Source: Tenacibaculum sp. MAR_2009_124 (GTDB lineage: Bacteria; Bacteroidota; Bacteroidia; Flavobacteriales; Flavobacteriaceae). Taken from it: a stretch of 64,000 bases of DNA. Shown in pieces: positions 5,434 through 22,354 of the stretch. The translations under genes were made by a program, and so were the position numbers. Below the pieces are notes generated by a model. That model was not told the DNA's origin and ran no database searches. It saw nothing but the letters and a program-made list of their open reading frames with translations. The stretch spans positions 749,001 to 813,000 of the forward strand of contig NZ_FNSF01000001.1 of the NCBI RefSeq assembly GCF_900105455.1, written 5' to 3'. Position 1 is the stretch's first letter, and each line of letters opens with the position of its first letter.

Positions 5434-5479
5434 ATTGGTATAGTTTATGTAACTTTGAATATGTTTAAAGAATAACAGG

Positions 5480-6175: not shown

Positions 6176-6230
6176 GATTTACTTATTAAACCATTGCTAT
6201 TTACAATACTTTAAAACGAAAACAAATTCG

Positions 6231-6238
6231 TAAATTTG
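6231..6238 (+). promoter_or_regulatory. Putative -7 element upstream of mnmA
   Basis: TAAATTTG matches the Bacteroidota -7 consensus TAnnTTTG and lies about 20 bases before the mnmA start codon. No convincing TTG -33 element is seen at the usual distance, so this is a motif match only. Confidence 0.4.
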
Positions 6239-6257
6239 TCGCCTTAAAACGAAACTA

Positions 6258-7445
6258 ATGAAAAGAGTAGTCGTAGGACTTTCAGGTGGAGTAGACAGTA
6301 GTGTAACAGCTCATCTTCTAAAGGAACAAGGATATGAAGTTATTGGGTTATTCATGAAAAATTGGCATGACGATGCAGTAACTATTTCAGATGAATGCCC
6401 ATGGTTAGAAGATAGCAATGATGCTATGATTGTGGCAGATAAATTAGGTATTCCGTTTCAAACAGTAGATTTAAGCGAGCAATATAAGGAACGTATTGTG
6501 GATTATATGTTTGCTGAATATGAAAAAGGGCGTACTCCTAATCCTGATGTGTTATGTAATCGTGAAATAAAGTTTGATGTTTTTATGGATATAGCTTTAA
6601 GTTTAGGAGCTGATTATGTGGCTACCGGACACTATTGCAGGAAAGACGAAGACATAATAGAAGGAAAACCAGTTTATAAATTATTGGCTGGAAAAGATAG
6701 CAATAAAGACCAGTCGTATTTTTTATGTCAACTATCTCAAAAACAATTAGCGAAAGCGTTGTTCCCAATAGGTGAATTAACAAAGCCTGAAGTGAGAGAG
6801 ATTGCGAAAGAAGCAGATTTAATAACGGCCGATAAAAAGGATTCTCAAGGATTATGTTTTATAGGAAAAGTAAGGTTACCTGATTTTTTGCAGCAAAAGT
6901 TACAGCCAAAAGATGGCGAAATCGTTCAGATACCTGATACTTTTAGTCAATTTAATCGTGTGACTCCTGATTTTGCTAGTAAAGAGGAGGAATTGGCTTA
7001 CTTTTCGGAAAAGTATAAGTATGTAAAGGAAAATGGAAAAGTTGTAGGAAAACATCAAGGCGCTCATTATTTTACGAAAGGACAGAGAAAAGGTTTAGCT
7101 GTAGGAGGAACTAAAGAGCCTTTATTTGTAATAGAAACCGATGTTGAAGAAAATATAATTTATACAGGAGAGGGGAAAAAGCATAAAGGATTATACCGAA
7201 ATGTACTATTCGTGTCTAATGATGAACTACACTGGATTCGTGAAGATTTAGCCTTAAATATTGAAGAAACAATGGAGGTAGAGGCTCGTATTAGATATAG
7301 ACAACAATTGGAAAGAGCAATACTTCATAAAGTTGATAATGGTTTATATGTAGAGTTTGATAATGCACAATCCGCTATTCAAGAAGGTCAATTCGTTGCT
7401 TGGTATAAAAATGAAGAGTTATTAGGTTCTGGAGTAATTAGTTAG
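6258..7445 (+). CDS. mnmA: tRNA-specific 2-thiouridylase MnmA
   Basis: ATP-dependent enzyme that thiolates U34 of tRNA-Lys, -Glu and -Gln in the cytoplasm. The 395-aa protein starts with the PP-loop SGGVDSS at 9-15. Catalytic cysteines are present: C100 in [11 protein letters not shown] and C200 in [10 protein letters not shown]. The GHYCR segment and the C-terminal beta-barrel ([22 protein letters not shown]) are typical. A region near 225-260 is somewhat extended compared with proteobacterial MnmA, as is common in Bacteroidota. The subtilase gene follows after 44 bases. Confidence 0.97.
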
Positions 7446-7489
7446 TTAATTATTTAAAAATAAAATAGAAAAGTAGTAATTTAGTTGGC

Positions 7490-9106
7490 ATGAGAAAATT
7501 ACTACTTTTTTTAACTATTTCCCTTCTGAGTAATTATACATTCTCTCAGACAGAAGATGCTTGGGTATTTTTCAAAGATAAGCCCGAAGCAAGCACATAT
7601 TTGTCCAATCCTACTTCAATGTTAACTCAGCGTTCTATTGATAGAAGAACTCGCTTAAACATTGCTTTAGATACAAAAGATGTTCCTATTCATTCCAGTT
7701 ATTACGATCAAGTCAAAAATACTTCAGGTATTACAGTTATGGCGAAATCGAAATGGTTAAATGCTATTCATGTTAGGGGAACTCAAACTATAATCGATGG
7801 TTTATCAACATCGTTTAGTTTTATAGAAAAGATTGAATTTGCGAACAAATCGTTAAACAGATCTGCTAATGTTTCTAGTGAAACTAAAGAAAGTAACCAC
7901 GTAAACAAGTTTGAAGGATTACATACTGATTTTGATTACGGCGTTGCAAATACACAAGTAACAATGATAAAAGCGGATTATTTACATCAACAAGGTTTTA
8001 CAGGTGAAGGAATCCATATGGCAGTTATTGATGCTGGTTTTCCCAATGTTCAATCGTTAAGCGCTTTTCAAAGATTAAGAGATAATAATAAAATATTAGG
8101 CGGATATGATTTTGTAAATAGAAGCTCTAATTTTTATACAGGACATAATCATGGAACGCATGTGCTATCTGACATTGCAGGATATATAGAAAATCAATTC
8201 GTAGGAACTGCTCCTGATGCTTCATTTTATTTATTTGTTACAGAAGATACAGCTAATGAAACACCTTTAGAAGAAAGTTTATGGGTGGAAGCAGCAGAAA
8301 GAGCGGATAGTTTAGGAGTAGACGTAGTGAATACTTCATTAGGATATACCACATTCGATAATTCAAGTTATAATTATAACTATAATGATATGGATGGAGA
8401 AACGGCATTTATATCAAGAGGAGCGGAAATAGGAGCTTCTAGAGGTGTTATATTTGTTACATCAGCAGGAAATAGTGGAGCCCAGTCTTGGAGGTATGTT
8501 TCAGCTCCTGCAGATGCGGCTTCTGTTTTTACTATTGGTGCAGTAAATGCTGCTGAAAACATAGCTTCGTTTAGTTCTTACGGGCCCACGGCTGATGGTA
8601 GAGTTAAACCAGATGTATTAGCTCATGGTCAAAGTGTTTATGTAATAAACTATATTTCTGGATCTCCTTCAACAAGTAACGGAACTTCCTTTTCATCACC
8701 AGTTATGGCAGGGGCAGTGGCTTGTTTTTGGCAGGCTTTTCCTGACTTAACTCATATAGAAATCATGCAAAAGATTAGAGAATCTGCCGATCGATATACC
8801 AACCCTACAGATCAGCATGGTTATGGAGTGCCAGATTTTGAACAAGCTTATAGAACGCTATCTACCGAAAAGTTACCAAACGAAAATGAAATAACCGTTT
8901 ATCCTAATCCAGTTGAAAACACGGTGTTTATTGACAGTCAGTATGATAAGGTTAATGTTTCTATTATAAATCTATTAGGTGAATTTGTAAAGAAAGAAGA
9001 AGGTGTTTCAGAAGGTGTTAACGTGTCTAATTTATCGCAAGGAATGTATATATTGCAGATTGAAAAAGATGGTCTTTTTCAAAAGATTAAATTTCTTAAA
9101 CAATAA
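7490..9106 (+). CDS. Secreted S8 subtilase with T9SS C-terminal sorting domain
   Basis: Extracellular serine protease, 538 aa. Signal peptide 1-19 (ending NYTFSQ), then a prodomain-like region to about 160. The subtilisin triad is complete: D181 (MAVIDAG), H221 (HNHGTHV) and S400 (NGTSFSSP), with oxyanion N328 in SAGNSG. Residues about 465-538 form a type A T9SS sorting domain (ITVYPNPVENTVFI ... GMYILQI ... IKFLKQ). It should therefore be exported by Sec, passed through the T9SS and released or surface-attached. It resembles a gene family common in Flavobacteriaceae and is distinct from the lipoprotein subtilase at 12403. Confidence 0.94.
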   Translation: MRKLLLFLTISLLSNYTFSQTEDAWVFFKDKPEASTYLSNPTSMLTQRSIDRRTRLNIALDTKDVPIHSSYYDQVKNTSGITVMAKSKWLNAIHVRGTQTIIDGLSTSFSFIEKIEFANKSLNRSANVSSETKESNHVNKFEGLHTDFDYGVANTQVTMIKADYLHQQGFTGEGIHMAVIDAGFPNVQSLSAFQRLRDNNKILGGYDFVNRSSNFYTGHNHGTHVLSDIAGYIENQFVGTAPDASFYLFVTEDTANETPLEESLWVEAAERADSLGVDVVNTSLGYTTFDNSSYNYNYNDMDGETAFISRGAEIGASRGVIFVTSAGNSGAQSWRYVSAPADAASVFTIGAVNAAENIASFSSYGPTADGRVKPDVLAHGQSVYVINYISGSPSTSNGTSFSSPVMAGAVACFWQAFPDLTHIEIMQKIRESADRYTNPTDQHGYGVPDFEQAYRTLSTEKLPNENEITVYPNPVENTVFIDSQYDKVNVSIINLLGEFVKKEEGVSEGVNVSNLSQGMYILQIEKDGLFQKIKFLKQ

Positions 9107-9199
9107 CTCGTTAAATATATTTTGATTAAGACGAATAATTAAGCGTAAACTTTATGAAATTGGATAGGCTTTAATTCGTCGTATCTACTATTGAATATA

Positions 9200-10138
9200 A
9201 TGAATAAAATCACAGACCTTTTTAATATTAAATACCCAATTGTTCAAGGAGGAATGATTTGGGTTTCTGGATGGAAATTAGCTTCAGCAGTTTCAAATGC
9301 TGGTGGATTGGGATTAATAGGCGCAGGATCGATGTATCCTGATGTATTAAGACAGCATATTCAGAAATGTAAAAAAGCAACCAATAAGCCATTCGGAGTT
9401 AATGTTCCTATGTTGTATCCAGACATTCAAGAAATAATGAATATTATCGTTGAAGAAGAAGTGAAGATAGTATTCACGTCCGCTGGAAACCCTAAAACAT
9501 GGACCAGTTTTTTAAAGGAGAAGGGAATAACCGTTGTTCATGTGGTTAGCTCAGTAAAATTTGCTCTGAAATCCGAGGCAGCAGGTGTTGATGCAGTGGT
9601 TTGTGAAGGTTTTGAAGCAGGAGGTCATAATGGCCGGGAAGAAACAACGACATTTACGTTAATTCCAATGGTAAAAGAACAATTAAAAATACCTGTAATT
9701 GCTGCAGGAGGCATCGGAACAGGAAGAGGAATGTTAGCTGCGATGGTATTGGGCGCAAATGGTGTTCAAATAGGAAGTAGGTTTGCTGCAACGGTTGAAT
9801 CATCAGCTCATGATAATTTTAAAAAAACAATTGTTGAAGTAAAAGATGGAGACACACATTTAACATTGAAAGAATTGGCTCCTGTAAGATTAGTTAAGAA
9901 TCTGTTTTATCAAAAAGTTCAAGAACTTTACCAGAATAATCCAAGTATTGAAGATATTAAAGATTTATTAGGGAGAGCTAGAGCAAAAAAAGGAATGTTT
10001 GAAGGAGATTTAGATGAAGGAGAACTAGAAATTGGTCAGATAGCGGGGTTAATTCATGAAATAAAACCAGCTAAAGATGTTTTAGAGGATATAATGGAAG
10101 AGTTCAACCAAGTAAAAGCAGAATTAAACTCTTTGTAA
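9200..10138 (+). CDS. Nitronate monooxygenase / FabK-like flavoprotein
   Basis: FMN-dependent TIM-barrel enzyme of the 2-nitropropane dioxygenase family, 312 aa. Motifs include the N-terminal YPIVQGGMIWVSG, the VCEGFEAGGHNGR segment with the catalytic-type histidine, and the phosphate-binding AAGGIGTGRGM. Members are either nitronate monooxygenases or FabK-type enoyl-ACP reductases; sequence alone does not decide, although the AGGH segment is shared by both. A TTG at 9191 in the same frame is possible, but the ATG at 9200 gives the usual N-terminus (MNKITDLFNIKYPI). The next gene starts 1 base after the stop, implying coupled translation. Confidence 0.87.
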   Translation: MNKITDLFNIKYPIVQGGMIWVSGWKLASAVSNAGGLGLIGAGSMYPDVLRQHIQKCKKATNKPFGVNVPMLYPDIQEIMNIIVEEEVKIVFTSAGNPKTWTSFLKEKGITVVHVVSSVKFALKSEAAGVDAVVCEGFEAGGHNGREETTTFTLIPMVKEQLKIPVIAAGGIGTGRGMLAAMVLGANGVQIGSRFAATVESSAHDNFKKTIVEVKDGDTHLTLKELAPVRLVKNLFYQKVQELYQNNPSIEDIKDLLGRARAKKGMFEGDLDEGELEIGQIAGLIHEIKPAKDVLEDIMEEFNQVKAELNSL

Positions 10139-10139
10139 A

Positions 10140-10850
10140 ATGGATGAAAAAGAAGGTGTTAAGTTTTTAAAACTACCATTTAAGTTTCATGCAGAAAAAC
10201 TTTCAAAAGATTTAGATAAAATAGAAGAACTGAACTGGAGTAACCATTTTAATAAAAATGGTTATTCTGGTATTTGGAGTTCGGTGGCTCTATTTTCAGT
10301 TGATGGCGAGTTAAACAATATCTCCGTTCCTTTAGATGGACAAAAGTTATTGGAAACAAAGGCTTTAAATGTAAGTAATTATTTTAGTGAAGTTCTCGCA
10401 GTATTTAAAGCACCTATTTTGTCAGCTAGGTTATTGAAATTAAAAAGTGGCTCAGAAATAAAACCGCATGAGGATCACAATTTAGGGTATGAGGATGGTT
10501 GTTTTCGAATTCATATACCCATAATTACTGATGAAAAAGTGAATTTTTTTATTGAAGACAAAAGAATAAACATGCTACCTGGTGAATGTTGGTATACCAA
10601 TGTAAATTACACGCATTCAGTATCTAATTTCAGTAAAATTGATAGAGTACATATAGTCATTGATCTTGAGAGAAATGAATGGTCTGATAGTGTTTTCTTT
10701 TCTCTTTGTAAAAAAGAGCAATTATTATTAAAACCAACTATTAATTACAATCTCGAGACAATTAAGAAAATGATTTCTGAGTTGAAGTTACAGAATACTG
10801 AAACATCAAAACAATTAATAGAATCACTTAAAAAGCAATACCAATTATAA
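10140..10850 (+). CDS. Aspartyl/asparaginyl beta-hydroxylase-like protein
   Basis: Probable Fe(II)/2-oxoglutarate-dependent oxygenase, 236 aa, of the aspartyl/asparaginyl hydroxylase family. The cupin core shows an HxD iron-binding motif at H110-E-D112 (IKPHEDHN), FRIHIPI at 122-128, a distal histidine H159 in NYTHSVSN and an arginine before HIVIDLE (R169) that would bind 2-oxoglutarate. The C-terminal 60 residues are helical and unassigned. The start codon lies 1 base after the flavoprotein stop, so the pair is co-translated. Substrate may be a protein or a small molecule; none is evident. Confidence 0.8.
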   Translation: MDEKEGVKFLKLPFKFHAEKLSKDLDKIEELNWSNHFNKNGYSGIWSSVALFSVDGELNNISVPLDGQKLLETKALNVSNYFSEVLAVFKAPILSARLLKLKSGSEIKPHEDHNLGYEDGCFRIHIPIITDEKVNFFIEDKRINMLPGECWYTNVNYTHSVSNFSKIDRVHIVIDLERNEWSDSVFFSLCKKEQLLLKPTINYNLETIKKMISELKLQNTETSKQLIESLKKQYQL

Positions 10851-10932
10851 GTTCTTATACCAGTGATGATTTGGGATTACTGTAAAAGAGAAATGGGTGT
10901 TTTATTACGGTAATTTCAATTGGTAAATGGTA

Positions 10933-11715
10933 TTATTCCATTTTTGTATGTATTTCTTTAGCCTTATTGTAATTGTAGTTGTTTTTATCCTTTAAAATTA
11001 AGATTAAAAGCTTTTTAGCCTCTTCTTTTTTGTTTTCTTTAAGTAGAAGTAAGAGTTTATACCAATAGCCTCTAGTGCTTTCTAAACTATCATTATTTAC
11101 CAATAAATCGAAAACCCTGTTGGCATTATTAATATCATTTAACTGAGCATAAGCAACACCTTTGTATATTAAAAAATAAGCGTCGTTTGAGTGCTCATTA
11201 TCTAGTTTAACAATAGTTTCATACTCTTTGTTTTTATAAAGTACTTCTATCGTGTTTAACCAATTTTCATTGGTTCCTTTTTCAACTAATGAAGGTAAAT
11301 TATTCCAATCTGCATATTCACGGTAAAAGTCGGTATTATCTGAAAGAACAGAATTTTTCACAAAAAAAGATAATAGAATCATTGCAGCTATTGAAGCGGC
11401 GTATTTGTAAAAATTAAATCGCTTTTTTCGATTTTTATAAGTCGACGTATTTTTTCTTATGTAGTCTGAGGTCTTACTTAATTCTTCTGATTTTAGAAGA
11501 TCCTTAATGGCATTTTTTTCTTCATTCAAGTTAAAAATGGAATCTTTATGGAAGTCCTTATTATTGCTCAATATTCGATGCATATTTAATTGAAGAATAA
11601 CATCTTCTTTCAATTCACTATCCAATTTCATTTCATTTTCAAATGTACTGCGCTCTTCACCACTCATTTTATTATGAATGTATTTTTCTATATTTTCTTG
11701 TTTCTTTGCTTCCAT
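10933..11715 (-). CDS. Membrane TPR-type anti-sigma factor
   Basis: Likely anti-sigma partner of the upstream ECF sigma gene, 260 aa. The N-terminus (IEKYIHNKMSGEERSTFE, from residue 9) matches the short helical sigma-binding segment seen in Bacteroidota anti-sigma proteins. A single transmembrane helix lies at about 104-121 after a basic NRKKRFNFYK stretch, so the N-terminus is cytoplasmic. Residues about 145-255 are TPR-like helices in the periplasm. The start ATG overlaps the sigma stop codon by one base (TAATG), showing translational coupling. No zinc-binding anti-sigma motif is present. The role is inferred from architecture and position. Confidence 0.75.
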   Translation of the reverse strand: MEAKKQENIEKYIHNKMSGEERSTFENEMKLDSELKEDVILQLNMHRILSNNKDFHKDSIFNLNEEKNAIKDLLKSEELSKTSDYIRKNTSTYKNRKKRFNFYKYAASIAAMILLSFFVKNSVLSDNTDFYREYADWNNLPSLVEKGTNENWLNTIEVLYKNKEYETIVKLDNEHSNDAYFLIYKGVAYAQLNDINNANRVFDLLVNNDSLESTRGYWYKLLLLLKENKKEEAKKLLILILKDKNNYNYNKAKEIHTKME

Positions 11716-12269
11716 TATTTTAAACTATTATAACGACGATCTTTTTTTATAATTGAAACTAATTTTGCTTTACACTTAAAAACTCGCTGTCTAACGGTGT
11801 TTACTGAAGCATAAGAAAGTTCTTTTACCAGTTCTTCGTAACTCATTCCATTAAAATAATTACTCAATATTTCTCGGCAATTATCGGAAAGCTTTTGAAA
11901 AGCATCAGTATAAAGTTCTCTTCTTTGTTGTTCAACTATAAACGTGCTTAAAGTGTCTTCTTTTATATGTAGTGGTAGAATGTCTTTATTCATTACCTTA
12001 CTTTTTCTGTTTTTTAACGAAGTTTTCCAAATATTCTTACAAATGGTAAAAAAATAAGCTTCGAAAGAGTTAATACTTAGTTGTTTCTTTCGATGAGTAA
12101 CAATTAAGTACATTAGAGCATCATGAAAAACATCTTCGACATCTTCCTCTTTTCCTTTATTTCTTAGTATAAAAGAGCTGATTTTAGGATAAAATTTAGA
12201 ATATATTTCTGAAGTTACCTTTTCATTTCCGTTCAATAAGGCATTCAAATATCGATCGCTTTCTGTCAT
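11715..12269 (-). CDS. ECF-type sigma-70 factor
   Basis: Alternative RNA polymerase sigma factor, 184 aa. Region 2 is visible at about 20-90 (YPKISSFILRNKGKEEDVEDVFHD, split across the helix, then EAYFFTICKNIWKTSLKN). Region 4 lies at about 118-178 with a helix-turn-helix (SYEELVKELSYASVNTVRQRVFKCK). It overlaps its putative anti-sigma by one base and is divergently arranged from the lipoprotein subtilase at 12403, with 133 bases between the starts. That context suggests that it may control the neighbouring protease-CHAT-lipoprotein genes, which is inference. Confidence 0.92.
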   Translation of the reverse strand: MTESDRYLNALLNGNEKVTSEIYSKFYPKISSFILRNKGKEEDVEDVFHDALMYLIVTHRKKQLSINSFEAYFFTICKNIWKTSLKNRKSKVMNKDILPLHIKEDTLSTFIVEQQRRELYTDAFQKLSDNCREILSNYFNGMSYEELVKELSYASVNTVRQRVFKCKAKLVSIIKKDRRYNSLK

Positions 12270-12402
12270 AAATTACTAATGAGAATTTAAAAATAAACTA
12301 ATTCTATATAAAAAATGGGTAATAAAATTCTTAATTTTAGACTATATGATACAAAAGTATGGTCTTTTGTGAATGGGGGAATTATAATTAAAAATTTAAA
12401 GA
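12270..12402. promoter_or_regulatory. Divergent intergenic region of the sigma/protease locus
   Basis: 133 bases between the divergent starts of the ECF sigma gene and the lipoprotein subtilase gene. It must hold promoters in both directions. It is AT-rich and has no convincing TAnnTTTG housekeeping -7 element toward the protease, which would fit an ECF-dependent promoter but does not prove it. Confidence 0.4.
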
Positions 12403-13668
12403 GTGATGAAGTTTATAAAATTACTATTGGTTTTGTTGGTTGTTTGTATAAATTATCAATGTAGTGAAAATAAGGATACTATAGAATTACAACAACAAAA
12501 AAAAATTACAAAACCCAAAGTAAGGCAAAACGTTCCTAGATATTCTAGAAACGAACTTATAATTAAATACAAACCTAATTTAAGTAGGAGAGATAAGCAG
12601 AATTTAAGAAATCAATATGGAGTAGAAACCTACGAACAATGCGATTTATGTGATGATGACCTTATTGAAAAATGGAATTTTGGAAGTGGTTTAAATAGTA
12701 ATATAAATATTGAAGATAAAAAGTTATCCATTCAAGGGGGAAGTGGAGGACCAGAGGGAGATATAACTGATGTTGATTATGAATTTTCCTTTAGGTTAGA
12801 GGGAGAATATGATTCTTATAGCTCAGGTGAAGGTTATGGATCATATTCAGATCAAATAGTCGGATCAAATGAAGGGGTAACAATTGCAGTTCTCGATACG
12901 GGTATCGATGCAAATTATCCTTTGTTTCCAGATGCTTTTCTATTTAACTCATCAGGAATTGATGTTGAAGGAGAAACTTCGGGATGGAACTTTGTTGGAC
13001 ATAATAGTAATTTCTTTGACGATTATAACTTAATTCATGGAACAAAAGTTAGTTATATAATAAATAAAAAATTACGTGAAGAGGGAATTCCTCATCAAAT
13101 TTTACCAGTAAAAGTTTGTGATGAAAATGGTGTCGCTACTTACTTTAATATTTTATGTGGTTTAAAATATGCATTGCCTAGAGCTAATATTGTACAAATT
13201 AGTTTAGGCTGGTACGAAACGAATACCGAAGTTAATACAATTTTTAGTTCTTTGGTTGCCCATTATCAGAAAAAGGTTTTAGTGGTAACTTCAGCTGGAA
13301 ATAGTGCAAAAAATACTGATGATATCGTACATTATCCATCATGTTATCCTCAGAGAAACATATTATCGATCGCTTCGTCGAATGCGGATAATTCAAACAT
13401 AGCAAGCTTTTCAAATTTTGGATTAAATACGGTTGATTTTTATGCTCCAGGTGAGGATATTGCTTTTTATGATATTTCAATGATTTTCGTACCTATATCA
13501 GGAACCTCATATTCAGCGCCGTTGGTTTCAGCACTTTCAGCGAAAATATTATATAACTCAGGAATGTTATATTCACCTAATGATATAATATCTCAGTTAA
13601 CTGTAGATGGAATTACCATTTCTTATGATGTTTCAAAGCCTGTAAAATATAATAAATTATTAAATTAG
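12403..13668 (+). CDS. Lipoprotein S8 subtilase of the CHAT locus
   Basis: Membrane-anchored serine protease, 421 aa. Signal peptide with lipobox near INYQC (Cys20). Residues about 45-95 form a compact prodomain-like unit (NELIIKYKPNLSRRDKQNL, then C80xxC83). A linker at 104-118 reads EDKKLSIQGGSGGPE. The catalytic domain starts near 155 with a complete triad: D165 (AVLDTG), H212 (IHGTKV), S369 (SGTSYSAP), oxyanion N300 (SAGNS). There is no T9SS tail, unlike the subtilase at 7490. The CHAT gene follows after 25 bases. The linker motif recurs at the C-terminus of the small lipoprotein at 16263, which suggests a processing or recognition site. Confidence 0.9.
   Translation: MMKFIKLLLVLLVVCINYQCSENKDTIELQQQKKITKPKVRQNVPRYSRNELIIKYKPNLSRRDKQNLRNQYGVETYEQCDLCDDDLIEKWNFGSGLNSNINIEDKKLSIQGGSGGPEGDITDVDYEFSFRLEGEYDSYSSGEGYGSYSDQIVGSNEGVTIAVLDTGIDANYPLFPDAFLFNSSGIDVEGETSGWNFVGHNSNFFDDYNLIHGTKVSYIINKKLREEGIPHQILPVKVCDENGVATYFNILCGLKYALPRANIVQISLGWYETNTEVNTIFSSLVAHYQKKVLVVTSAGNSAKNTDDIVHYPSCYPQRNILSIASSNADNSNIASFSNFGLNTVDFYAPGEDIAFYDISMIFVPISGTSYSAPLVSALSAKILYNSGMLYSPNDIISQLTVDGITISYDVSKPVKYNKLLN
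12712..12756 (+). other. GSGGPE motif in subtilase linker
   Basis: Codons for residues 104-118 of the lipoprotein subtilase, between prodomain and catalytic domain. The peptide is EDKKLSIQGGSGGPE; 12 of 15 residues equal the last 15 residues of the lipoprotein encoded at 16263-16460. Four of the 12 shared codons differ synonymously, so the match is not a very recent DNA copy. Confidence 0.75.
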
Positions 13669-13693
13669 TGGTGAAACTAAAACGAACCACTTT

Positions 13694-16183
13694 ATGAATC
13701 GATTTTTCGTGTTTTTTCTGTTAATCAGCGTAAATTTAAATGCACAGAGTTCTGATAAAATAAGAAGTATCGATACTGTTTTTTATTCTAATTTAAGCGG
13801 AGAAATCAAAATAAAACAAGTTTTAGATATCCTTAGCAATGAGGGAATATCAAGCTCACCAAAACAAGCGAATATATATCATAAATTAGGGTTGCTAGCG
13901 AATAGCATTGGGCGTTACGAAAAAGCTATTGAGTATACCCGAAAATCAGTTGATTTAAGGAAGCAAAGCACTAACATTGATTATTATAAGTTATTAAATA
14001 GCTTGTATAATCTCAGTTATTATTTTGGTAGACTAAATAGAATTGATAAAAAGAAAGCTATTATAAAGGAAATTTTGGGTTACTCGGTGGAGAACAAATT
14101 CCGGTATAAAGCAACTATAGATTTGGCTTACTTAATATCAGAAGAAGGGGATTATTTTCGAACGCTTGAAAAGTTCGATAATGTCATAAATAATTATGAT
14201 AAATATGAAGATCCAAAAACGCTTTTAAAAGCTCATGAGGGAGCTATTTATGCGTACAGTGAAATTGATAAATCAGAAAGGTATTTTGATAAAATATCTA
14301 ATCATATTGATGGGATTAATTATCTTTTAAAGACTTATAAGCATTTAAGTACTAGTATTGGTCATGATAATAACTTAGCAAATATATACGAAGGTCAAAA
14401 GGATTACCAAAGAGCCATAGAATTTTACAAAAAATCTGAAGACATAAGTTTAAAATATCAAGACAGTGTCAAACTTGGAGATATATACAATAATCTAGGT
14501 AGAATTTATAATATAGTAGGCAAACAAAAACTAGCGAATGAATTCTTTGTTAAATCATTAAAGTTTTCGTCTGGTTTAAGATCAAAGGCTGCGGTGTATA
14601 ATAATCAAGGAGATTTACTAGATGAATCAATTCAATTACTAAATAATAAAAAGGCAATAGAAACTCTTTTAGGTACTTCTTATGAAGAGTTACCCTTATT
14701 TCAGGAAATAAAAGAATCTGAATATATAATTGATATCGTAGATTATTTAATTCAAAGTGTCGATGCAGGAACGAAATTTTACACTAAAAAATCGGACACA
14801 AATGGGGTAAATAAAATTATTGATATGACGATGTTAGTAGATAAATTAATATCATTACTAAGACGAGAAAGTCTTGTTGACATGTCAAAACTTTTATGGA
14901 TTGAAAGAGCGAGTGAGTTTTATATGAATGGTGTTACTTTGGCGTATCATATGAAGAACTCTCCATTAGCATTTTATTTTATGGAGAAAAATAAGGGCTT
15001 ACTTCTTTTAGAAGGTTTACATAAGTCTAATAATGAATATTATAAAGAGCCTAAATTAGAAGCATTAACAGAGAATGTTAACGATTTCGTCAATGATGGA
15101 ACTTCTTTTGTTGAGTATATTATGAATGAAAATGAAGGCTATGGACTGTTTTATGGCAATGAATCTCATGAGTTTTTTAAATTATCAAATGTACCTCAAT
15201 TGCTTGCTAATGTTAAAAAGTTGAAACGAAGAGTACGAGAGTATTTTAAAAACGAACAAGAAAAAGAAGAATATAAAGAGTTGGCAAATAGTATTTTTAA
15301 GACCTTATTTCCATTTGAAAATTCTTTTGATAAAATAAAAAATAAAGAACTAATTATAGTTCCCGACTATGAGTTACAATATATAAACTTTGAAACATTA
15401 GTGCCGAAATCTTCAGATGGGTACCTCGTTGAAACTACTGAAGTAAGGTATCTATTATCGCTGTCGATAGCCGATCATTTAAAAAGGCAAGACAAAATTT
15501 CAAAACTTGGCGTTTTTGGAATTGCTCCAATCCATTTCAAAGAAAGTAGTTTGCCTTCTCTCGAACGAAGTAGTGCTATTATGAATGAAGTTTCTAATTC
15601 ATTTATAAGTAGGATGTTGATCGGTGAAACAGCTACGAAACGAAAGTTTATAACAGATTTAGAGAATTATAAAATAGTTCATTTGAACACTCACGCAGGA
15701 ATAGATGAAATTGAAAATGAACCATGGCTTATGTTTTATGATGGAAGTTTAAGTTTTTATGAAATATCACAGTTAAGGAATAATGCAGATTTAGTTGTGT
15801 TGGATGTATGCAATGGAGCCATAGGTGAACATGAAGTAGGGGAGGGAGTTATGAGTTTAGCGAGAGGTTTCTTTAAAGGGGGAGCTAAAAGTGTCGTAAC
15901 AAGTCAATGGGAAGCGAATGAAAAGGCCGTTACAGAGATTTTAACTCATTTTTATAAAGGACTAAGTAAAGGCCAAACCAAATCAAAAGCATTGCAATTA
16001 GCAAAGAAAAAATACCTAGAAAATCACCAATTGAGTGAAGTATCACCATATTATTGGGGAGCTTTGGTTTTAACAGGAAATACAGATGCAATAATTCCTC
16101 AAGTAGACTATTTTAGATTAATATGGGTGGTAGTAGTGATGCTTTTAATCTTTGCTACGAGTAAATTGTTAATTAGCTATTAA
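13694..16183 (+). CDS. Exported TPR-CHAT (caspase-like) protein with C-terminal membrane anchor
   Basis: Predicted cysteine peptidase of clan CD, 829 aa. Signal peptide 1-17 (ending NLNAQ). TPR-like helices cover about 55-300 (for example IYHKLGLLANSIGRYEKAIEY and YNNLGRIYNIVGKQKLANEF split across two units), then a helical connector. The CHAT domain spans about 530-800 with catalytic H667 (VHLNTHAG) and C706 (VVLDVCNGAIGE), plus a conserved SQWEANEKA segment. A transmembrane helix lies at about 808-826 near the C-terminus. The signal peptide plus anchor place the protease in the periplasm. It sits 25 bases after the subtilase gene. Most described CHAT proteases are cytoplasmic, so the location is notable. 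Confidence 0.88.
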   Translation: MNRFFVFFLLISVNLNAQSSDKIRSIDTVFYSNLSGEIKIKQVLDILSNEGISSSPKQANIYHKLGLLANSIGRYEKAIEYTRKSVDLRKQSTNIDYYKLLNSLYNLSYYFGRLNRIDKKKAIIKEILGYSVENKFRYKATIDLAYLISEEGDYFRTLEKFDNVINNYDKYEDPKTLLKAHEGAIYAYSEIDKSERYFDKISNHIDGINYLLKTYKHLSTSIGHDNNLANIYEGQKDYQRAIEFYKKSEDISLKYQDSVKLGDIYNNLGRIYNIVGKQKLANEFFVKSLKFSSGLRSKAAVYNNQGDLLDESIQLLNNKKAIETLLGTSYEELPLFQEIKESEYIIDIVDYLIQSVDAGTKFYTKKSDTNGVNKIIDMTMLVDKLISLLRRESLVDMSKLLWIERASEFYMNGVTLAYHMKNSPLAFYFMEKNKGLLLLEGLHKSNNEYYKEPKLEALTENVNDFVNDGTSFVEYIMNENEGYGLFYGNESHEFFKLSNVPQLLANVKKLKRRVREYFKNEQEKEEYKELANSIFKTLFPFENSFDKIKNKELIIVPDYELQYINFETLVPKSSDGYLVETTEVRYLLSLSIADHLKRQDKISKLGVFGIAPIHFKESSLPSLERSSAIMNEVSNSFISRMLIGETATKRKFITDLENYKIVHLNTHAGIDEIENEPWLMFYDGSLSFYEISQLRNNADLVVLDVCNGAIGEHEVGEGVMSLARGFFKGGAKSVVTSQWEANEKAVTEILTHFYKGLSKGQTKSKALQLAKKKYLENHQLSEVSPYYWGALVLTGNTDAIIPQVDYFRLIWVVVVMLLIFATSKLLISY

Positions 16184-16262
16184 TCAGATCCTAACAAGTG
16201 AATTTTATTTTCATTAAGTTGATGTTTTTATTATATTTACGTGAATTATAACTTATATAACT

Positions 16263-16460
16263 ATGAAAATAATTAAACTATTGTTAATTGCTGTGGTCAG
16301 TTTAACATTTTTACAATGTACAGATTCGGAAGATAACTTCAATACGAGCAGTCAAACTCCGAATTCCGAACAAGAATCTATTCATGATTTGAATAATTAT
16401 CAGTCTACTACCGAAGATAAAAAATTAACGATTGATGCGGGTAGTGGCGGTCCAGAGTAG
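16263..16460 (+). CDS. 65-aa lipoprotein ending in GSGGPE
   Basis: Very small lipoprotein. The signal peptide has a lipobox at TFLQC (Cys19), leaving a 47-residue acylated peptide rich in Ser, Asn, Asp and Glu. Its C-terminal 15 residues, EDKKLTIDAGSGGPE, match 12 of 15 residues of the linker of the subtilase encoded 3.7 kb upstream, and the signal peptides also look alike (MK-x-IKLLL). It has no folded domain. It lies 79 bases after the CHAT gene and just before a strong terminator, so it closes the locus. Substrate, decoy, inhibitor or remnant of a duplicated subtilase N-terminus are all possible; real coding status is supported by the lipobox and the motif. Confidence 0.78.
   Translation: MKIIKLLLIAVVSLTFLQCTDSEDNFNTSSQTPNSEQESIHDLNNYQSTTEDKKLTIDAGSGGPE
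16413..16457 (+). other. GSGGPE motif at C-terminus of small lipoprotein
   Basis: Codons for residues 51-65, EDKKLTIDAGSGGPE, immediately before the stop codon. This is the counterpart of the linker motif at 12712-12756. Confidence 0.75.
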
Positions 16461-16475
16461 CTATCAGAAAAATAC

Positions 16476-16506
16476 AAAAGGCGCAAATTAATTGTTGCGC
16501 CTTTTA
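16476..16506. terminator. Bidirectional rho-independent terminator
   Basis: Perfect 11-bp stem AAAAGGCGCAA / TTGCGCCTTTT with an 8-base loop. It lies between the small lipoprotein stop and the convergent ribB stop and has A/T tracts on both sides, so it can serve both. Confidence 0.85.
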
Positions 16507-16527
16507 AAATATTTTTACTCTTTCAAT

Positions 16528-17670
16528 TTAATAGCCAACGTAATCTACAATTTCAAGACCATATCCAATCATACCAACACGCTTCTTTTGTTGTGTATTA
16601 GATACCAAACGTAATTTATGAATGTGTAAGTCATGTAATATTTGAGCTCCAATACCAAAGTCTTTGTTATCCATTACTACACTAGGAGCTTTCATTTCAC
16701 CTTTAGTTTGATTTTCTTTTAAACCACGCAGTCTGTTTAAAAGATTTAGTGATTGCGGTTGTTGATTGATAAAAACAATAGCACCTTTACCTTCTTCATT
16801 AATAACTTTAAACATCTGGTCTAACTTTTTATCAGCATTATTTGTTAAAGTACCTAAGATGTCGTTATTTACTAAAGTAGAGTTTATTCTTGTCAAAATA
16901 GGCTCCTCTTTGGTCCAACTTCCTTTGGTTAAGGCAATATGAATCTGATGATTTGTAGTTTGCTTATAAGCTCTCAATCGGAAATCACCAAAACGTGTTT
17001 GTATATTAAAATCTTCTTTCTTTTCAATTAGCGAGTCGTGCTCCATACGGTATGCGACTAAATCTTCGATAGAAACAATTTTAAGGTCGAACTTTTTAGC
17101 AACTTTAATTAGCTGAGGTAACCTAGCCATAGTTCCATCTTCATTCATTATTTCAACGATTACACCCGATGGTTTTAAGCCAGCAAGACGAGCAAAGTCA
17201 ATTGCAGCTTCGGTATGCCCAGTTCTTCTAAGAACACCACCATTTTTCGCTTTTAATGGAAAAATATGCCCTGGCCTTGCCAAATCAAAAGGTTTTGTAT
17301 TCTTGTCAACTAAAGCTTGAATTGTTTTGGCTCTGTCTGAAGCAGAGATTCCAGTAGTAACACCATTTCCTCTTAGGTCAACGGATACTGTAAAAGCAGT
17401 TTCCATAGGATCGGTGTTATTACTCACCATCATTCCTAACTCTAACTCTTTACAACGATCCTCGGTCATTGGAGTACAAATCAAACCTCTACCATGAGTT
17501 GCCATAAAGTTTACCATTTCAGGAGTTATTAATTCTGCCGCGGCAAGAAAGTCTCCTTCATTTTCTCTGTCTTCATCATCGACAACGATGATTACTTTAC
17601 CATTTTTTATGTCTTCAATTGCTTCTTCAATTGAATTTAATTGAATTTTAGTTGAGGTTTGTGTTGCCAT
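16528..17670 (-). CDS. ribB: 3,4-dihydroxy-2-butanone 4-phosphate synthase with degenerate GTP cyclohydrolase II domain
   Basis: Riboflavin biosynthesis enzyme converting ribulose 5-phosphate to DHBP, 380 aa. The RibB domain (about 10-210) has the acidic signature DDEDRENEGD (31-40), TTGISASDRA and RRTGHTEAA. Residues about 222-378 align with the RibA fold, but the zinc-binding cysteine cluster of GTP cyclohydrolase II is absent: the equivalent stretch near 260-280 (TRINSTLVNNDILGTLTNN) has no cysteine. The second half is therefore unlikely to be an active cyclohydrolase, so another ribA should exist elsewhere. The start overlaps the upstream lptG-like gene by 23 bases. Confidence 0.93.
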   Translation of the reverse strand: MATQTSTKIQLNSIEEAIEDIKNGKVIIVVDDEDRENEGDFLAAAELITPEMVNFMATHGRGLICTPMTEDRCKELELGMMVSNNTDPMETAFTVSVDLRGNGVTTGISASDRAKTIQALVDKNTKPFDLARPGHIFPLKAKNGGVLRRTGHTEAAIDFARLAGLKPSGVIVEIMNEDGTMARLPQLIKVAKKFDLKIVSIEDLVAYRMEHDSLIEKKEDFNIQTRFGDFRLRAYKQTTNHQIHIALTKGSWTKEEPILTRINSTLVNNDILGTLTNNADKKLDQMFKVINEEGKGAIVFINQQPQSLNLLNRLRGLKENQTKGEMKAPSVVMDNKDFGIGAQILHDLHIHKLRLVSNTQQKKRVGMIGYGLEIVDYVGY

Positions 17671-19120
17671 TGTCTATTGTTTCTCTTTTTTTCGAGAAAA
17701 TATTTTTAAAAAAGGTTATAATTGAATTAAAGAATCCGCTAATATCAAACAGTCCTTTATCTTTCGTTGCTCGTATTGTTAGTATTAACGCAAAAGGGGT
17801 CATTAATGCTATAGCAAGCCATGATCCTGTAATAGCAGATACCGTACTTTCTTCTGCCATATTCCGTCCAAACGTATTCGTAAAGAAATAAAGAACGTAT
17901 ACAGCAATAGCGAGAATCATTGGAAGACCCATACCTCCCTTTCTTATGATTGATCCAAGAGGGGCGCCAATGAAAAATAGTAGTAAACAAGATAAAGAAA
18001 ATGCCACTCTATTATAATATTCAATATCATGAAGATTTAGCCATTTTCTTCTATCTTTTAAATTGTTTTTGTAAGACTTTTGATTGTTGAGTGTTCTTTC
18101 TAATTTAGAGTTTGCTGTACTCATAATTTCATCTTGCTGATCCAATTCAAAATTTGAAAGTATATCTTGAGATAGCTCATTGTTTTTTAGCGAATCAGGA
18201 TATTCATGTAAATCGCTAATGTCTAAAGTCAAAAATAAGTTTTTAGCCCTATTACTTATATAAGTATCATAATTTTTCTTTAACGTAGGAATGGTATCCT
18301 TAAGCTGCTTTAAACTAAGCATATTAAAGTTTTTCGTGTACTTTAAATCGTCTAAGTCCGTTCCATCGAGAGATGATACATCAATATTGATAGTATATTC
18401 ATCAAAATCGGCATGAGATGCGGGCATTTTTAGTCGCTCTTTATAATTTGCTCCTTTTTTTTGATGATCTTCAAAGTAGTATCCATTATAGAGTTCCAAA
18501 GTCATGTATCGACTTCCTTCTTCTGATAAAATTTTTCCTTCTTTGGCTGTTATTATTTTATTATTTCCTTTTCTTGAAGATAAGTCATAAATGAGAACTT
18601 TCTTTAAAAGGTTCTTTTCCTCTCCATATTTTTCTTCAAACTTAATTTGATAGTTCGGAATTTCGGTATTAAAGCTTCCAGGAACTAATGCTAAGGCAGG
18701 TTGTTTTTTTCTAATGTTATGACGCAAGTTTAGCTGTTTTAATACAGCATAAGGATATACGTAGTTTAAGAAGAGAAAATTAATAGAGCTTAAAAAAAGA
18801 GCCAAGAACACGAGCGATCTTACCATTCTGGGTAATGAGATACCAGCGGATTTAGCTGCGGCAAATTCGTAATTTTCTGACAAACTACCTAAAGTCATAA
18901 TTGACGATAGTAGAACACCAATAGGCAGTGCCTGAGGAGCGGCCATTAGAGCAGAATACCACAAGAATTTTAAAATAATAACAACACCAATTCCTTTACC
19001 AGCAAAACTATCAAAGGCCAACCACAGCATTTGCATTATCAATACAAATAGTATGATTAAGAAGGTTGTGAGGAAAGGAATTAAAAAACTTTTAAGTATG
19101 TATCTGTCTAATGTCTTCAC
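17648..19120 (-). CDS. LptF/LptG-family permease
   Basis: Inner-membrane component of the lipopolysaccharide export machine (YjgP/YjgQ family), 490 aa. Three N-terminal transmembrane helices (about 12-35, 48-75, 95-125) and three C-terminal ones (about 370-450) flank a large periplasmic domain, the usual LptF/G layout. The LDRYILKSFLIPF start and the LSxNYEFAAAKSAGIS segment near 80-95 are typical of the family. The insert at about 280-355 is long and charged. Upstream lies the lolA-like gene, downstream ribB with a 23-base overlap. Whether it acts as LptF or LptG cannot be told. Confidence 0.9.
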   Translation of the reverse strand: MKTLDRYILKSFLIPFLTTFLIILFVLIMQMLWLAFDSFAGKGIGVVIILKFLWYSALMAAPQALPIGVLLSSIMTLGSLSENYEFAAAKSAGISLPRMVRSLVFLALFLSSINFLFLNYVYPYAVLKQLNLRHNIRKKQPALALVPGSFNTEIPNYQIKFEEKYGEEKNLLKKVLIYDLSSRKGNNKIITAKEGKILSEEGSRYMTLELYNGYYFEDHQKKGANYKERLKMPASHADFDEYTINIDVSSLDGTDLDDLKYTKNFNMLSLKQLKDTIPTLKKNYDTYISNRAKNLFLTLDISDLHEYPDSLKNNELSQDILSNFELDQQDEIMSTANSKLERTLNNQKSYKNNLKDRRKWLNLHDIEYYNRVAFSLSCLLLFFIGAPLGSIIRKGGMGLPMILAIAVYVLYFFTNTFGRNMAEESTVSAITGSWLAIALMTPFALILTIRATKDKGLFDISGFFNSIITFFKNIFSKKRETIDNGNTNLN

Positions 19121-19203
19121 AGACGCAAAGGTAGTGTGTTAGTATTATATAAAACTATAAAACTTTTGTTAATAAGTATTAATTATAACAAAAGTTTTAC
19201 AAA

Positions 19204-19857
19204 TTAATCTATCAGGTATCCGAGATTAGAGTATTTATCACGATTTAGTGAAAATGATTTCTCAGAAATTGGTTGATCTTTTTTGAACTTAGTGATCGTA
19301 AAAGTGGTTTCAGCGCCATTTGATCCAATTTGAATCAACTCGTATATATGCTTGGTTTTCGCATCAACTCCCAATTTAACTTTAACAATATCAGAATTAC
19401 TATCGATAGGGGTTAAATCTACATATTGAATTTTTCGACCTTTATTATTCTCTAATTTACCAATAGTGTAATTATATCCATCTTTATAAAAGGTTAATAA
19501 TTTTGAGGGATAGATAAAACCATCTTCTTCCTCCAAATCACCTCTTGATATGCTAATTTCTTTATCTTCATGATTTATTACTGCCAGTTCTTTTCCATCA
19601 AAAAGGAAACTGTTTCCTAAGTACTCTAAGCTATATTTATCAGCAGAAATAACAATATTACCTCTTATAGGAGGATCATTGGTAATACCTGCTTCTCGAT
19701 TAACTAAAGTTGAATTAAATCCAATAACCATATTTTTGTAGGCTCCCATTTTAGATGAAACTTCATCAAGTAGTTCTTTTGCTTCGTTCGAAGAATTCTG
19801 AGCTAATGTGTTAAAGCTTATAAGAATTCCCATTAAAAATAAACTGATATACTTCAT
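19204..19857 (-). CDS. LolA-like outer-membrane lipoprotein carrier
   Basis: Periplasmic carrier protein of the LolA family, 217 aa from the chosen start. The preferred ATG at 19857 gives a clean signal peptide (MKYISLFLMGILISFNTLAQ); a longer frame back to 19932 would overlap ftsK and bury the signal peptide. The mature part has the LolA pattern of amphipathic beta strands (KDGYNYTIG, IQYVDLTPID, TFTITKFKKDQPI). It lies 34 bases downstream of ftsK and upstream of the LptF/G gene, giving an envelope-biogenesis cluster. Confidence 0.85.
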   Translation of the reverse strand: MKYISLFLMGILISFNTLAQNSSNEAKELLDEVSSKMGAYKNMVIGFNSTLVNREAGITNDPPIRGNIVISADKYSLEYLGNSFLFDGKELAVINHEDKEISISRGDLEEEDGFIYPSKLLTFYKDGYNYTIGKLENNKGRKIQYVDLTPIDSNSDIVKVKLGVDAKTKHIYELIQIGSNGAETTFTITKFKKDQPISEKSFSLNRDKYSNLGYLID

Positions 19858-19891
19858 TCGTCCTATATTTTCTGTTTGCATGTATTTTATT

Positions 19892-22354
19892 CTAATTATT
19901 TTTTTCATTATCCAATAATTGTTCCAAAGCAATGAAATCTGGTACTAAAACTTGACGAGCTTTACTTCCTTCAAAAGGACCAACAATTCCAGCAGCTTCA
20001 AGTTGATCAATTAAACGTCCCGCTCTGTTATATCCAAGTTTTAATTTTCTTTGTAATAAAGAGGCTGAACCTTGTTGTGCTGTAACAATAACTTCAGCAG
20101 CTTCTTTGAACAATTTATCTCGATTTGCAATATCTATATCAACATTTGTGCCACCTTCTTCACCTACATATTCTGGAAGCAAGTGAGCTTCGGCGTAAGC
20201 TCTCTGAGAACCAATAAAATCTGTTATTTTTTCTACTTCGGGAGTGTCTACAAAAGCACACTGAATACGTGTTAAATCATTTCCTCCAGAATACAACATA
20301 TCTCCACGACCAATTAATTGGTCAGCACCAGGAGCATCTAAAATTGTTCTACTGTCTATCTTAGAAGTAACTCTAAAGGCTATTCTTGACGGGAAATTTG
20401 CCTTAATAATACCGGTAATAACGTTCACAGAAGGTCGTTGAGTGGCTACAATTAGGTGAATTCCAATTGCACGTGCTAATTGAGCTAAACGAGCAATAGG
20501 TGTTTCTACTTCTTTTCCTGCAGTCATAATCAAATCAGCAAATTCATCAATAACCAATACAATGTAGGGTAAAAACTGATGCCCGTTTTCAGGATTTAAT
20601 TTACGAGCTTTGAATTTGGCGTTGTATTCTTTAATGTTACGAACCATCGCATCTTTTAGCAAGTCGTAACGAGCATCCATTTCAATACAAAGAGAGTTTA
20701 GTGTATTAACAACCTTTGTTGTATCGGTAATAATGGCTTCTCCATCGTCGGGAAGTTTGGCTAAGTAATGACGCTCAATTTTATTGAATAAAGTCAATTC
20801 TACTTTTTTAGGATCTACCAGCACGAACTTAACTTCTGCGGGATGTTTTTTATATAATAACGAAGTCAAAATAGTATTTAATCCAACCGATTTACCTTGT
20901 CCAGTAGCTCCTGCCATAAGTAAGTGCGGCATTTTAGCTAAATCAGTTACAAAAGTTTCGTTGGATATGGTTTTACCCATTGCAATTGGCAATTCCATAG
21001 GAGATTCCTGAAATTTCTTTGATGAAATTACCGAATGCATAGAAACTATGGTTGCCTTTTTATTAGGTACTTCAATACCAATGGTTCCTTTACCAGGAAT
21101 AGGGGCAATAATACGAATGCCTAAAGCAGCTAAAGATAAAGCGATATCATCTTCTAAGTTTTTAATTTTAGAGATTCTAACACCTGCTTCTGGAACTATT
21201 TCATACAATGTAATAGTAGGTCCAACGGTTGCTTTAATTTGGGCAATACCAATTTTATAGTTTTTTAAAGTTTCTACAATTTGATTTTTATTCGCTTCTA
21301 GTTCCGTAGGATCAACAGAAATACTTTCGTTATATTCTTTTAAAAGATTGAAGGTTGGAAAACGATAATTACTCAACTCTAGCTTAGGGTCAAATTCTCC
21401 AAAATCTTTTAATAATTTGTCTGATAAATTTTCAGTGACACTTTTTTCTTCCGCAATTTTTTCGATGGCTACTTCTACTTCCTTAATGGTGTCCTCTGAA
21501 ACTTTGAGTTCTGGTTCATTTTGAGAAGAAGTGGTATCCAGATTAACTTCAGTGGAATCATTATTTTGCTCGTCATCCTTTTGAACTACTTCGGAATGAT
21601 TTTTTATAGTTGGAGTCAAGTTTTCAACAGATAATTCAAAATCTGATTTTGAATCATTCTCAATGTTTATGTTTTTAGACTCGGGTGTTATGGTAGGGGT
21701 GTCAGAAGTTTGAAGATCTTCCTCATTATTTATACGTTCTTGTTCTTTCTCTTTTTTCTTCGCTTCTAAATTTTCAACAATAGCATCTGGATCGATACTA
21801 AAACGAATAATTAAATAGGAAATGAAAAAGAATAACAGTAAAATGATAAGGCCAGTTTTACCAATAAAAGTTTGTAAATATTCATTGAGTTCGAAACCAA
21901 TAATACCTGATAATATCGCGTATTTAGTGTTAACAAATCCTAAAGAAATTGAAGCCCATAGCATTCCGAGTAATCCCCAGTTCCATGAAGTAATAATTTT
22001 TTTTAAGTTCGATTGTAATAAAATCCTCGCTCCTGTAAAGAACAATACTATGTTCAAAATGAATGTACCTAATCCAAAACCTTTAAAAACTAATACATTG
22101 CTGAGTTTTGCTCCAATTTTCCCTAATAAATTACCCGTCGGAATACTTCTATCGGAGAATTGATTTAGGGCACTTTGGTCTTGTTGCCAAGTGTAAAAAA
22201 AAGAAACAAAGGCAACTGTCATAAAGATAGAAAACAGTATTAGAAAAGCTCCAAAAATGGTTTTATTTTGTCTATTTTCCACAAAAGACTTTACTTTTGA
22301 AATAGTCGAAATGGATTTTTGATCTTTCTTAACAGATGTTTTCTTTTTTGCCAT
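19892..22354 (-). CDS. ftsK: FtsK/SpoIIIE DNA translocase
   Basis: Septal DNA pump that moves chromosome termini during division, 820 aa. The N-terminus has about four transmembrane helices (35-55, 88-112, 125-150, 165-187), followed by an acidic, low-complexity linker (about 195-310). The motor has Walker A GATGQGKS at 482-489 and a Walker B VLVIDEFADL near 600. The C-terminal gamma winged helix (LLQRKLKLGYNRAGRLIDQL) is complete, and would recognise KOPS-type DNA motifs. It is preceded by dgkA (28-base gap) and followed by the lolA-like gene. Confidence 0.96.
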   Translation of the reverse strand: MAKKKTSVKKDQKSISTISKVKSFVENRQNKTIFGAFLILFSIFMTVAFVSFFYTWQQDQSALNQFSDRSIPTGNLLGKIGAKLSNVLVFKGFGLGTFILNIVLFFTGARILLQSNLKKIITSWNWGLLGMLWASISLGFVNTKYAILSGIIGFELNEYLQTFIGKTGLIILLLFFFISYLIIRFSIDPDAIVENLEAKKKEKEQERINNEEDLQTSDTPTITPESKNINIENDSKSDFELSVENLTPTIKNHSEVVQKDDEQNNDSTEVNLDTTSSQNEPELKVSEDTIKEVEVAIEKIAEEKSVTENLSDKLLKDFGEFDPKLELSNYRFPTFNLLKEYNESISVDPTELEANKNQIVETLKNYKIGIAQIKATVGPTITLYEIVPEAGVRISKIKNLEDDIALSLAALGIRIIAPIPGKGTIGIEVPNKKATIVSMHSVISSKKFQESPMELPIAMGKTISNETFVTDLAKMPHLLMAGATGQGKSVGLNTILTSLLYKKHPAEVKFVLVDPKKVELTLFNKIERHYLAKLPDDGEAIITDTTKVVNTLNSLCIEMDARYDLLKDAMVRNIKEYNAKFKARKLNPENGHQFLPYIVLVIDEFADLIMTAGKEVETPIARLAQLARAIGIHLIVATQRPSVNVITGIIKANFPSRIAFRVTSKIDSRTILDAPGADQLIGRGDMLYSGGNDLTRIQCAFVDTPEVEKITDFIGSQRAYAEAHLLPEYVGEEGGTNVDIDIANRDKLFKEAAEVIVTAQQGSASLLQRKLKLGYNRAGRLIDQLEAAGIVGPFEGSKARQVLVPDFIALEQLLDNEKNN

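Follow-up and report, generated by a model that had tools for sequence, protein, structure and literature searches.

A conserved unit of sigma factor, predicted anti-sigma factor, subtilase and TPR-CHAT protease in Tenacibaculum, with a possible role in envelope signalling

Craspase, the type III-E CRISPR system, combines Cas7-11 with Csx29 (a protein of tetratricopeptide repeats (TPR) and a CHAT domain), Csx30 and CASP-sigma, and Csx29 cleaves Csx30, a sigma-factor inhibitor (PMC10028731). DdvA, the anti-sigma factor of DdvS in Myxococcus xanthus, holds a TPR-CHAT fold within the anti-sigma chain itself (PDB 8rot and 8rw5; PMC4374960). In Actinobacteria, sigma genes of the extracytoplasmic function (ECF) group ECF54 have a conserved context of subtilase and CHAT genes, and proteolytic control has been proposed (PMC8999054). 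EACC2 and caspase domains, in some cases joined by TRADD-N proteins, form the basis of further systems that include ECF sigma and TPR genes and that, as described, differ from the present locus (PMC8195603). Here we describe a locus of Tenacibaculum sp. MAR_2009_124, within a 64,000-nt stretch of contig NZ_FNSF01000001.1 (the window) from a 5.5-Mb genome, in which an ECF sigma factor, a predicted membrane anti-sigma factor, a lipoprotein-like S8 subtilase and a TPR-CHAT protease form a conserved four-gene unit that differs from Craspase, DdvA and ECF54.

The unit was defined by gathering relatives through S8 similarity, fetching their neighbourhoods and scoring open reading frames (ORFs) against a profile for each of the four families. 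With a minimum profile score of 200 bits, and after removal of six duplicate regions and the partial S8 of locus L071, this gave 49 distinct loci including the window. From a set of 80 loci, 25 were used (L037–L060 and L071; S8 identity 33–80%, 40% over the fragment in L071); the other 55, with E values of 5e-22 or weaker and matches mostly to the catalytic domain, were left out. Neighbourhoods were also taken for 26 of 27 S8 matches outside the home genome (all except G079:C225). TPR-CHAT lay downstream of S8 on the same strand in all 49 loci, and a divergent sigma/anti-sigma pair lay upstream in 45; in the remaining four, S8 stood at a contig edge (L051), was a tandem second copy (L059, L210) or had an opposite gene (L205). 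Tandem second modules were observed in three loci: one with its own sigma pair, its CHAT gene running off the locus (L050), and two with S8 and CHAT only (L059, L210). At an E value of 1e-40, S8 turned up in 16 of the 397 family genomes and 5 of the 116 genus genomes, a patchy distribution for the unit; relatives that carry it include Kordia, Dokdonia and Flavobacterium. All S8 relatives above 60% identity with a source name were from Tenacibaculum, and none of the unit genes was present in stretches of about 7 kb 3' of ribBA in six genus genomes lacking an S8 match.

In the window, the features of the unit are as follows:
10933..11715, minus strand: membrane anti-sigma factor (predicted), 260 residues; an ORF with a cytoplasmic N-terminal part, one transmembrane helix (by eye) and a periplasmic TPR-like part
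11272..11307, minus strand: candidate juxtamembrane periplasmic cut region, anti-sigma residues 137–148, W-x-x-L-P-S-x-x-x-K-G/S-D
11715..12269, minus strand: ECF sigma factor, 184 residues; TIGR02937 at 2e-18, above cut-off, and Sigma70_r2 at 6e-6
12316..12344, plus strand: candidate promoter of the co-encoded sigma factor, TGGGTAAY-R-N17-CT (home-genome site G000:C8:761316)
12403..13668, plus strand: S8 subtilase with an I9-like prodomain and a predicted lipid anchor, 421 residues; Peptidase_S8 at 3e-26
12712..12756, plus strand: S8 prodomain helix alpha2 and alpha2–beta4 loop, EDKKLSIQGGSGGPE, placed by predicted model and conservation
13694..16183, plus strand: TPR-CHAT cysteine protease with signal peptide and C-terminal transmembrane helix (both predicted), 829 residues; CHAT at 2e-39

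A first-pass annotation of this DNA had described a coherent five-gene unit bounded by a terminator, the fifth gene encoding a short lipoprotein. Its layout held: the ORF listing has all five ORFs in place, the sigma and anti-sigma genes overlap in the sequence TAATG, S8 is divergent from that pair, TPR-CHAT starts 25 bases past the end of S8, and a GC hairpin with a T-run can be read by eye at about 16476–16506. Pfam matches in the window confirmed the sigma, S8 and CHAT families, and the ATG at 12406 is the likelier S8 start. Coherence was borne out for sigma, anti-sigma, S8 and TPR-CHAT, which occur all four in the same order in 45 of 49 loci. It failed for the short lipoprotein: routine absence from orthologous loci had been named beforehand as telling against the grouping, and 47 of 49 loci lack the gene. 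The statement that the locus was not characterised also stood in part. The four-gene unit was not found described in a literature search that covered few subscription papers, but subtilase and CHAT genes beside ECF54 are in print (PMC8999054), and both Craspase and DdvA join a TPR-CHAT fold to anti-sigma control.

Compared with Craspase, the CHAT protein here has a predicted signal peptide and transmembrane helix, the inhibitor is a predicted membrane protein and a subtilase is present in 49 of 49 loci. No ORF of Cas7-11 size lies between 8500 and 19000 of the window, where the largest ORF is the 829-residue CHAT gene. The DdvA chain starts with a cytoplasmic sigma-binding part. Here, unlike in DdvA, the anti-sigma and TPR-CHAT proteins are encoded by separate divergent genes in 45 loci, and a subtilase is added. 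ECF54 is described with a carboxypeptidase and no anti-sigma factor, whereas the present unit has a predicted membrane anti-sigma in 45 of 49 loci and belongs to Bacteroidota (PMC8999054).

The sigma gene product has the ECF architecture. No family matched its partner above cut-off in Pfam and TIGR-type profile scans, and no anti-sigma-domain profile matched; the name anti-sigma therefore rests on place, topology and alignment, and both this identity and the pairing with the sigma factor are predicted from the TAATG coupling, the membrane topology and co-occurrence in 45 of 49 loci. Next to the membrane, the anti-sigma has Pro141 and Ser142 in 26 of 26 aligned sequences and Trp137 in 24 of 26, and residue 146 is Lys in 22 and Gln in 4. 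The invariant Pro-Ser just outside the membrane marks the predicted cut region. An M50 site-2 protease is encoded in the home genome and in 14 of 14 control genomes.

Both proteases retain the catalytic residues that the first-pass annotation had reported as intact. In the CHAT protein, a TPR solenoid is followed by a CHAT domain with a His/Cys dyad, and His667 and Cys706 did not vary across 24 aligned sequences; a larger set, which included locus-end fragments, had them in 26 of 27. Sequence and model alike predict its signal peptide and C-terminal transmembrane helix, placing it, as predicted, on the periplasmic face, and the model structure matched Craspase, separase and the anti-sigma factor DdvA (so titled in PDB 8rot and 8rw5). 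In S8, Asp164, His211 and Ser368 (P0001 numbering), which we take to be the catalytic residues, were invariant in 43 aligned proteins, as was the predicted lipid cysteine. The S8 model has a ferredoxin-like prodomain (helix at residues 102–112, loop at 113–119, strand at 120–130) and aligns with pro-subtilase chains from about residue 43–50 to residue 420; its exposed prodomain loop differs in length among relatives. A Cys-x-x-Cys in the prodomain (residues 79 and 82) was also invariant in all 43 aligned proteins and could be a disulfide or metal site.

An acidic export signal after the lipidated cysteine has been described for surface lipoproteins (PMC5080379). A lipobox screen (55 rows in all) was passed by 44 S8 proteins, not including that of the window. 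Of these, 42 had one or more acidic residues at positions +2 to +6, and acidic residues at these positions averaged 1.75 in the 44 S8 proteins versus 1.33 in 55 neighbours (p 0.016).

We propose, with confidence somewhat short of an even chance, that the four genes form an envelope-signalling unit in which CHAT cuts the anti-sigma beside the membrane and the sigma factor is freed to transcribe the proteases and unlinked genes, with S8 as an effector and the short lipoprotein as a decoy. TPR-CHAT would act as the site-1 protease on the predicted membrane anti-sigma, the M50 protease would follow as site-2 protease, and the released ECF sigma would transcribe both protease genes and probably also unlinked genes for small peptides and secreted proteins from TGGGTAAY promoters. 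The S8 lipoprotein would sit at the outer membrane or cell surface as a zymogen, to be activated when its exposed prodomain loop is cut.

The roles of the two proteases may be reversed, with S8, or a factor matured by S8, cutting the anti-sigma and CHAT serving as the effector; this too would be a protease-triggered sigma switch. Such an arrangement seems rather unlikely to us. Both proteases occur in 49 of 49 loci, and the S8 model, a zymogen whose prodomain exposes a loop of variable length, would suit a sensor. However, S8 is predicted to be lipid-anchored, its acidic +2 to +6 pattern weakly indicates the outer membrane or surface, and CHAT has its own transmembrane helix as well as the precedents of DdvA and Craspase.

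The sigma-driven part of our proposal draws on a motif between the divergent genes. NGGGTAAY, facing away from sigma, was present in 40 of 44 distinct sigma/S8 or sigma/cargo intergenic regions (all but those of L141, L189, L201 and L204) and on the opposite strand in none of the 44; mononucleotide shuffles of the same regions gave 0.4 on average and 5 at most. Among the 38 regions with full flanks, T preceded GGG in 84%, and C (86%) and T (73%) followed at a fixed spacing. TGGGTAAY is thus a likely promoter of the co-encoded sigma factor, and the motif data are consistent with the divergent proteases and unlinked peptide genes being under sigma control.

With a stricter pattern, the home genome has 7 sites versus 2 for the reversed pattern. 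One is the S8 promoter and four sit 100–170 bases 5' of genes encoding a 157-residue lipoprotein-like protein, a 315-residue secreted-looking protein, a papain-like protease and a 73-residue GG-leader peptide, the last of these followed by a radical-SAM gene whose product comes closest to YhhB and FxsB but reaches neither curated cut-off. The papain-like protease (PF00112 at 5e-7; L214) has a secreted-looking N-terminus and could be a third protease of the regulon. The five genus genomes with the unit have 7, 3, 4, 5 and 2 sites (mean 4.2), and the 111 other genus genomes have a mean of 0.98 and a maximum of 6. The GG-leader peptide gene (a family of about 73–78 residues; L215, L221, L222 and L226–L241) occurs in all five unit genomes and in 11 of the 111 others. 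GGGTAA lies 5' of it in four of five unit genomes versus one of the ten others with a readable upstream region, G310 being the unreadable one of the 16 genomes with the gene; the single non-unit case has no CT at the fixed spacing. G408, the unit genome without GGGTAA before the peptide gene, has a distant unit whose own S8 region (L141) also lacks the motif. A radical-SAM gene adjoins the peptide gene in three unit genomes (L215, L221 and L222; the family scan covered L215). Further motif sites, read by eye, precede a small GG peptide in G363 (L223) and a small ORF 5' of a C39-peptidase-like gene in G301 (L225). We suggest that competition sensing, in which envelope damage releases peptides, would fit this regulon.

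Several observations weigh against the proposed switch. What ties CHAT rather than S8 to the anti-sigma is only topology and the Craspase and DdvA precedents, and the acidic excess after the S8 lipid cysteine over neighbours is modest. The sigma side of the intergenic region has the motif in 0 of 44 cases, so that autoregulation of sigma is not seen, and other sigma factors may share the motif. Two of the seven home-genome sites fall within ORFs; G301 (3 versus 3) and G408 (2 versus 1) have no clear excess of the pattern over the reversed control, and the S8 promoters in these two genomes escape the strict pattern. Among the 111 genus genomes without the unit, the pattern averages fewer sites (0.98) than its reversed control (1.92), and one such genome has 6 sites. 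The short lipoprotein has no TGGGTAAY before it and a weak lipobox, and occurs in two genomes only.

Genes adjoining the unit bear on a different explanation, namely that it is a surface-protein maturation system in which S8 and CHAT process neighbouring type IX secretion system (T9SS)-type or lipoprotein products and the sigma pair adjusts supply. Such genes were called with a purpose-made profile from ten tails (all Pfam Por_Secre_tail) together with the lipobox screen. Of the 45 loci with a sigma pair, 13 have additional genes between sigma and S8, with a T9SS tail in 11 of the 13; at least one further same-strand gene follows CHAT in 27 of 49 loci, and in 15 of these 27 the first such gene encodes a T9SS-tailed or lipoprotein-like product. 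These neighbours speak for maturation, which we nevertheless consider improbable: 22 of 49 loci lack any such gene downstream of CHAT, the neighbours that were read differ among themselves, and a scan of 25 loci turned up a second copy of an S8 segment, as described below, only in tandem S8 copies and in the short lipoproteins of L037 and the window. DUF805b RNA (RF02914) was observed in L052, L058, L059, L203 and L206, directly before T9SS-tailed genes in the first three; DUF805b-like leaders were read by eye in L212, L213 and L215, where they precede other genes with the promoter motif, and Rfam gave no match to this RNA between 9000 and 18000 of the window.

The 65-residue lipoprotein is one occupant of this variable slot after CHAT, from which it is separated by 79 bases. 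The features at this end of the locus are:
16263..16460, plus strand: lipoprotein-like protein, 65 residues, lineage-specific occupant of the post-CHAT slot (2 of 49 loci)
16413..16457, plus strand: C-terminal copy of the S8 prodomain segment, EDKKLTIDAGSGGPE, then stop; ungapped comparison score 65
16476..16506, strand not assigned: hairpin and T-run (terminator) between the lipoprotein gene and ribBA (named by eye), read by eye

The gene is present in the window and L037, in 2 of 166 genus genomes at an E value of 1e-30 or better, and has one relative in the protein collection. At 0.01 or better, 14 of the 166 genomes matched, two of them genuinely; the other 12 gave E values of 7.6e-5 or weaker, mostly over the N-terminal part, and the one that was read (L151) encodes an apparently unrelated small lipoprotein with a Gly-rich tail. 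In the window, S8 and the short lipoprotein both have Gln before the predicted lipid cysteine (YQC and LQC), a weak lipobox. The last 15 residues of the short lipoprotein are a copy of S8 residues 103–117, which the model assigns to prodomain helix 2 and the helix 2–strand 4 loop; the shared segment reads EDKKL-T/S-I-D/Q-A/G-GSGGPE. A degenerate DNA pattern for GSGGPE matched the 5.5-Mb genome only at the S8 segment and the lipoprotein tail. The window S8 carries EDKKLSIQGGSGGPE and its lipoprotein EDKKLTIDAGSGGPE, and L037 has the reverse, giving opposite pairings in which S8 SIQG goes with lipoprotein TIDA in one lineage and the other way round in the other. In a scan of all frames in 25 loci (window 5000–22000 and L037–L060), the second-copy score for a locus's own S8 segment was 65 in the window and 64 in L037, at most 43 for the best non-paralogous match elsewhere, and 46 (L050) and 102 (L059) for S8 copies in tandem modules. 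Across L139, L141 and L187–L211, the lipoprotein query and tail pattern found S8 proteins and nothing else beyond the window and L037.

Two other explanations of the shared peptide were set aside. As a general substrate tag it was rejected, only the window and L037 standing out in the 25 loci scanned; as the junction of the S8 prodomain and catalytic domain (an autoprocessing site) it was dropped because the model puts it inside the prodomain, in helix 2 and the following loop.

Under our proposal, the 65-residue lipoprotein of the two lineages would present the prodomain helix and loop with a free Pro-Glu, serving as a decoy for any factor that grips or cleaves the prodomain of S8 and thereby setting the threshold of activation. 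A more specific form of the idea, in which a gene-encoded prodomain mimic with a free C-terminal helix and loop gates a caspase–subtilase cascade driving a sigma regulon of radical-SAM peptides, and in which the opposite pairings are read as swapped specificity, is doubtful; with two genomes, the swap of peptide types may be chance.

The lipoprotein could also be a functionless relic: a piece of an S8 gene, fused and by chance retained in two related genomes. We regard this account as quite possible without thinking it the probable one. It would suit a gene confined to 2 of 166 genus genomes. Between the window and L037, DNA identity in best aligned stretches is 94–96% in the lipoprotein body and the gap upstream, 74–79% in S8, CHAT and anti-sigma and 89% in sigma, and synonymous divergence (dS) is 0.07 in the body versus 0.6 to 1.8 in its neighbours. 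The likely and best account of this pattern is recent recombination over a tract of about 300 bases that runs from about 16110 to 16425 and stops at the shared EDKK stretch; such an event lowers the weight of the body's conservation. Against a relic, both genomes retain an intact start, reading frame and stop, and the tail peptide is unchanged relative to the S8 copy of the other lineage with synonymous sites saturated. Equal peptides across lineages differ by 8 synonymous and 0 other changes in one comparison and by 10 and 0 in the other, suggesting selection on the peptide, with part of the constraint owed to the S8 copies compared.

Three more CHAT matches were noted elsewhere in the home genome (L001–L003; G000:C4 and G000:C7), and no subtilase was seen by eye beside those of L001 and L002 in their ORF lists. 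In a PADLOC scan for defence systems, S8 matched a subtilase entry (5.5e-8), CHAT matched a TPR entry only and the anti-sigma had no match.

If the proposal is correct, an envelope sigma switch of Bacteroidota would be triggered by a caspase-like protease outside the cytoplasm, beside the intracellular Craspase and the DdvA of Myxococcus; should the anti-sigma be cut as predicted, the unit would be an envelope alarm. Were the short lipoprotein a prodomain decoy, it would be an unusual means of tuning a protease cascade. The promoter motif and its short list of targets, which includes GG-leader peptides with radical-SAM genes, make the role of this predicted periplasmic CHAT protease directly testable.
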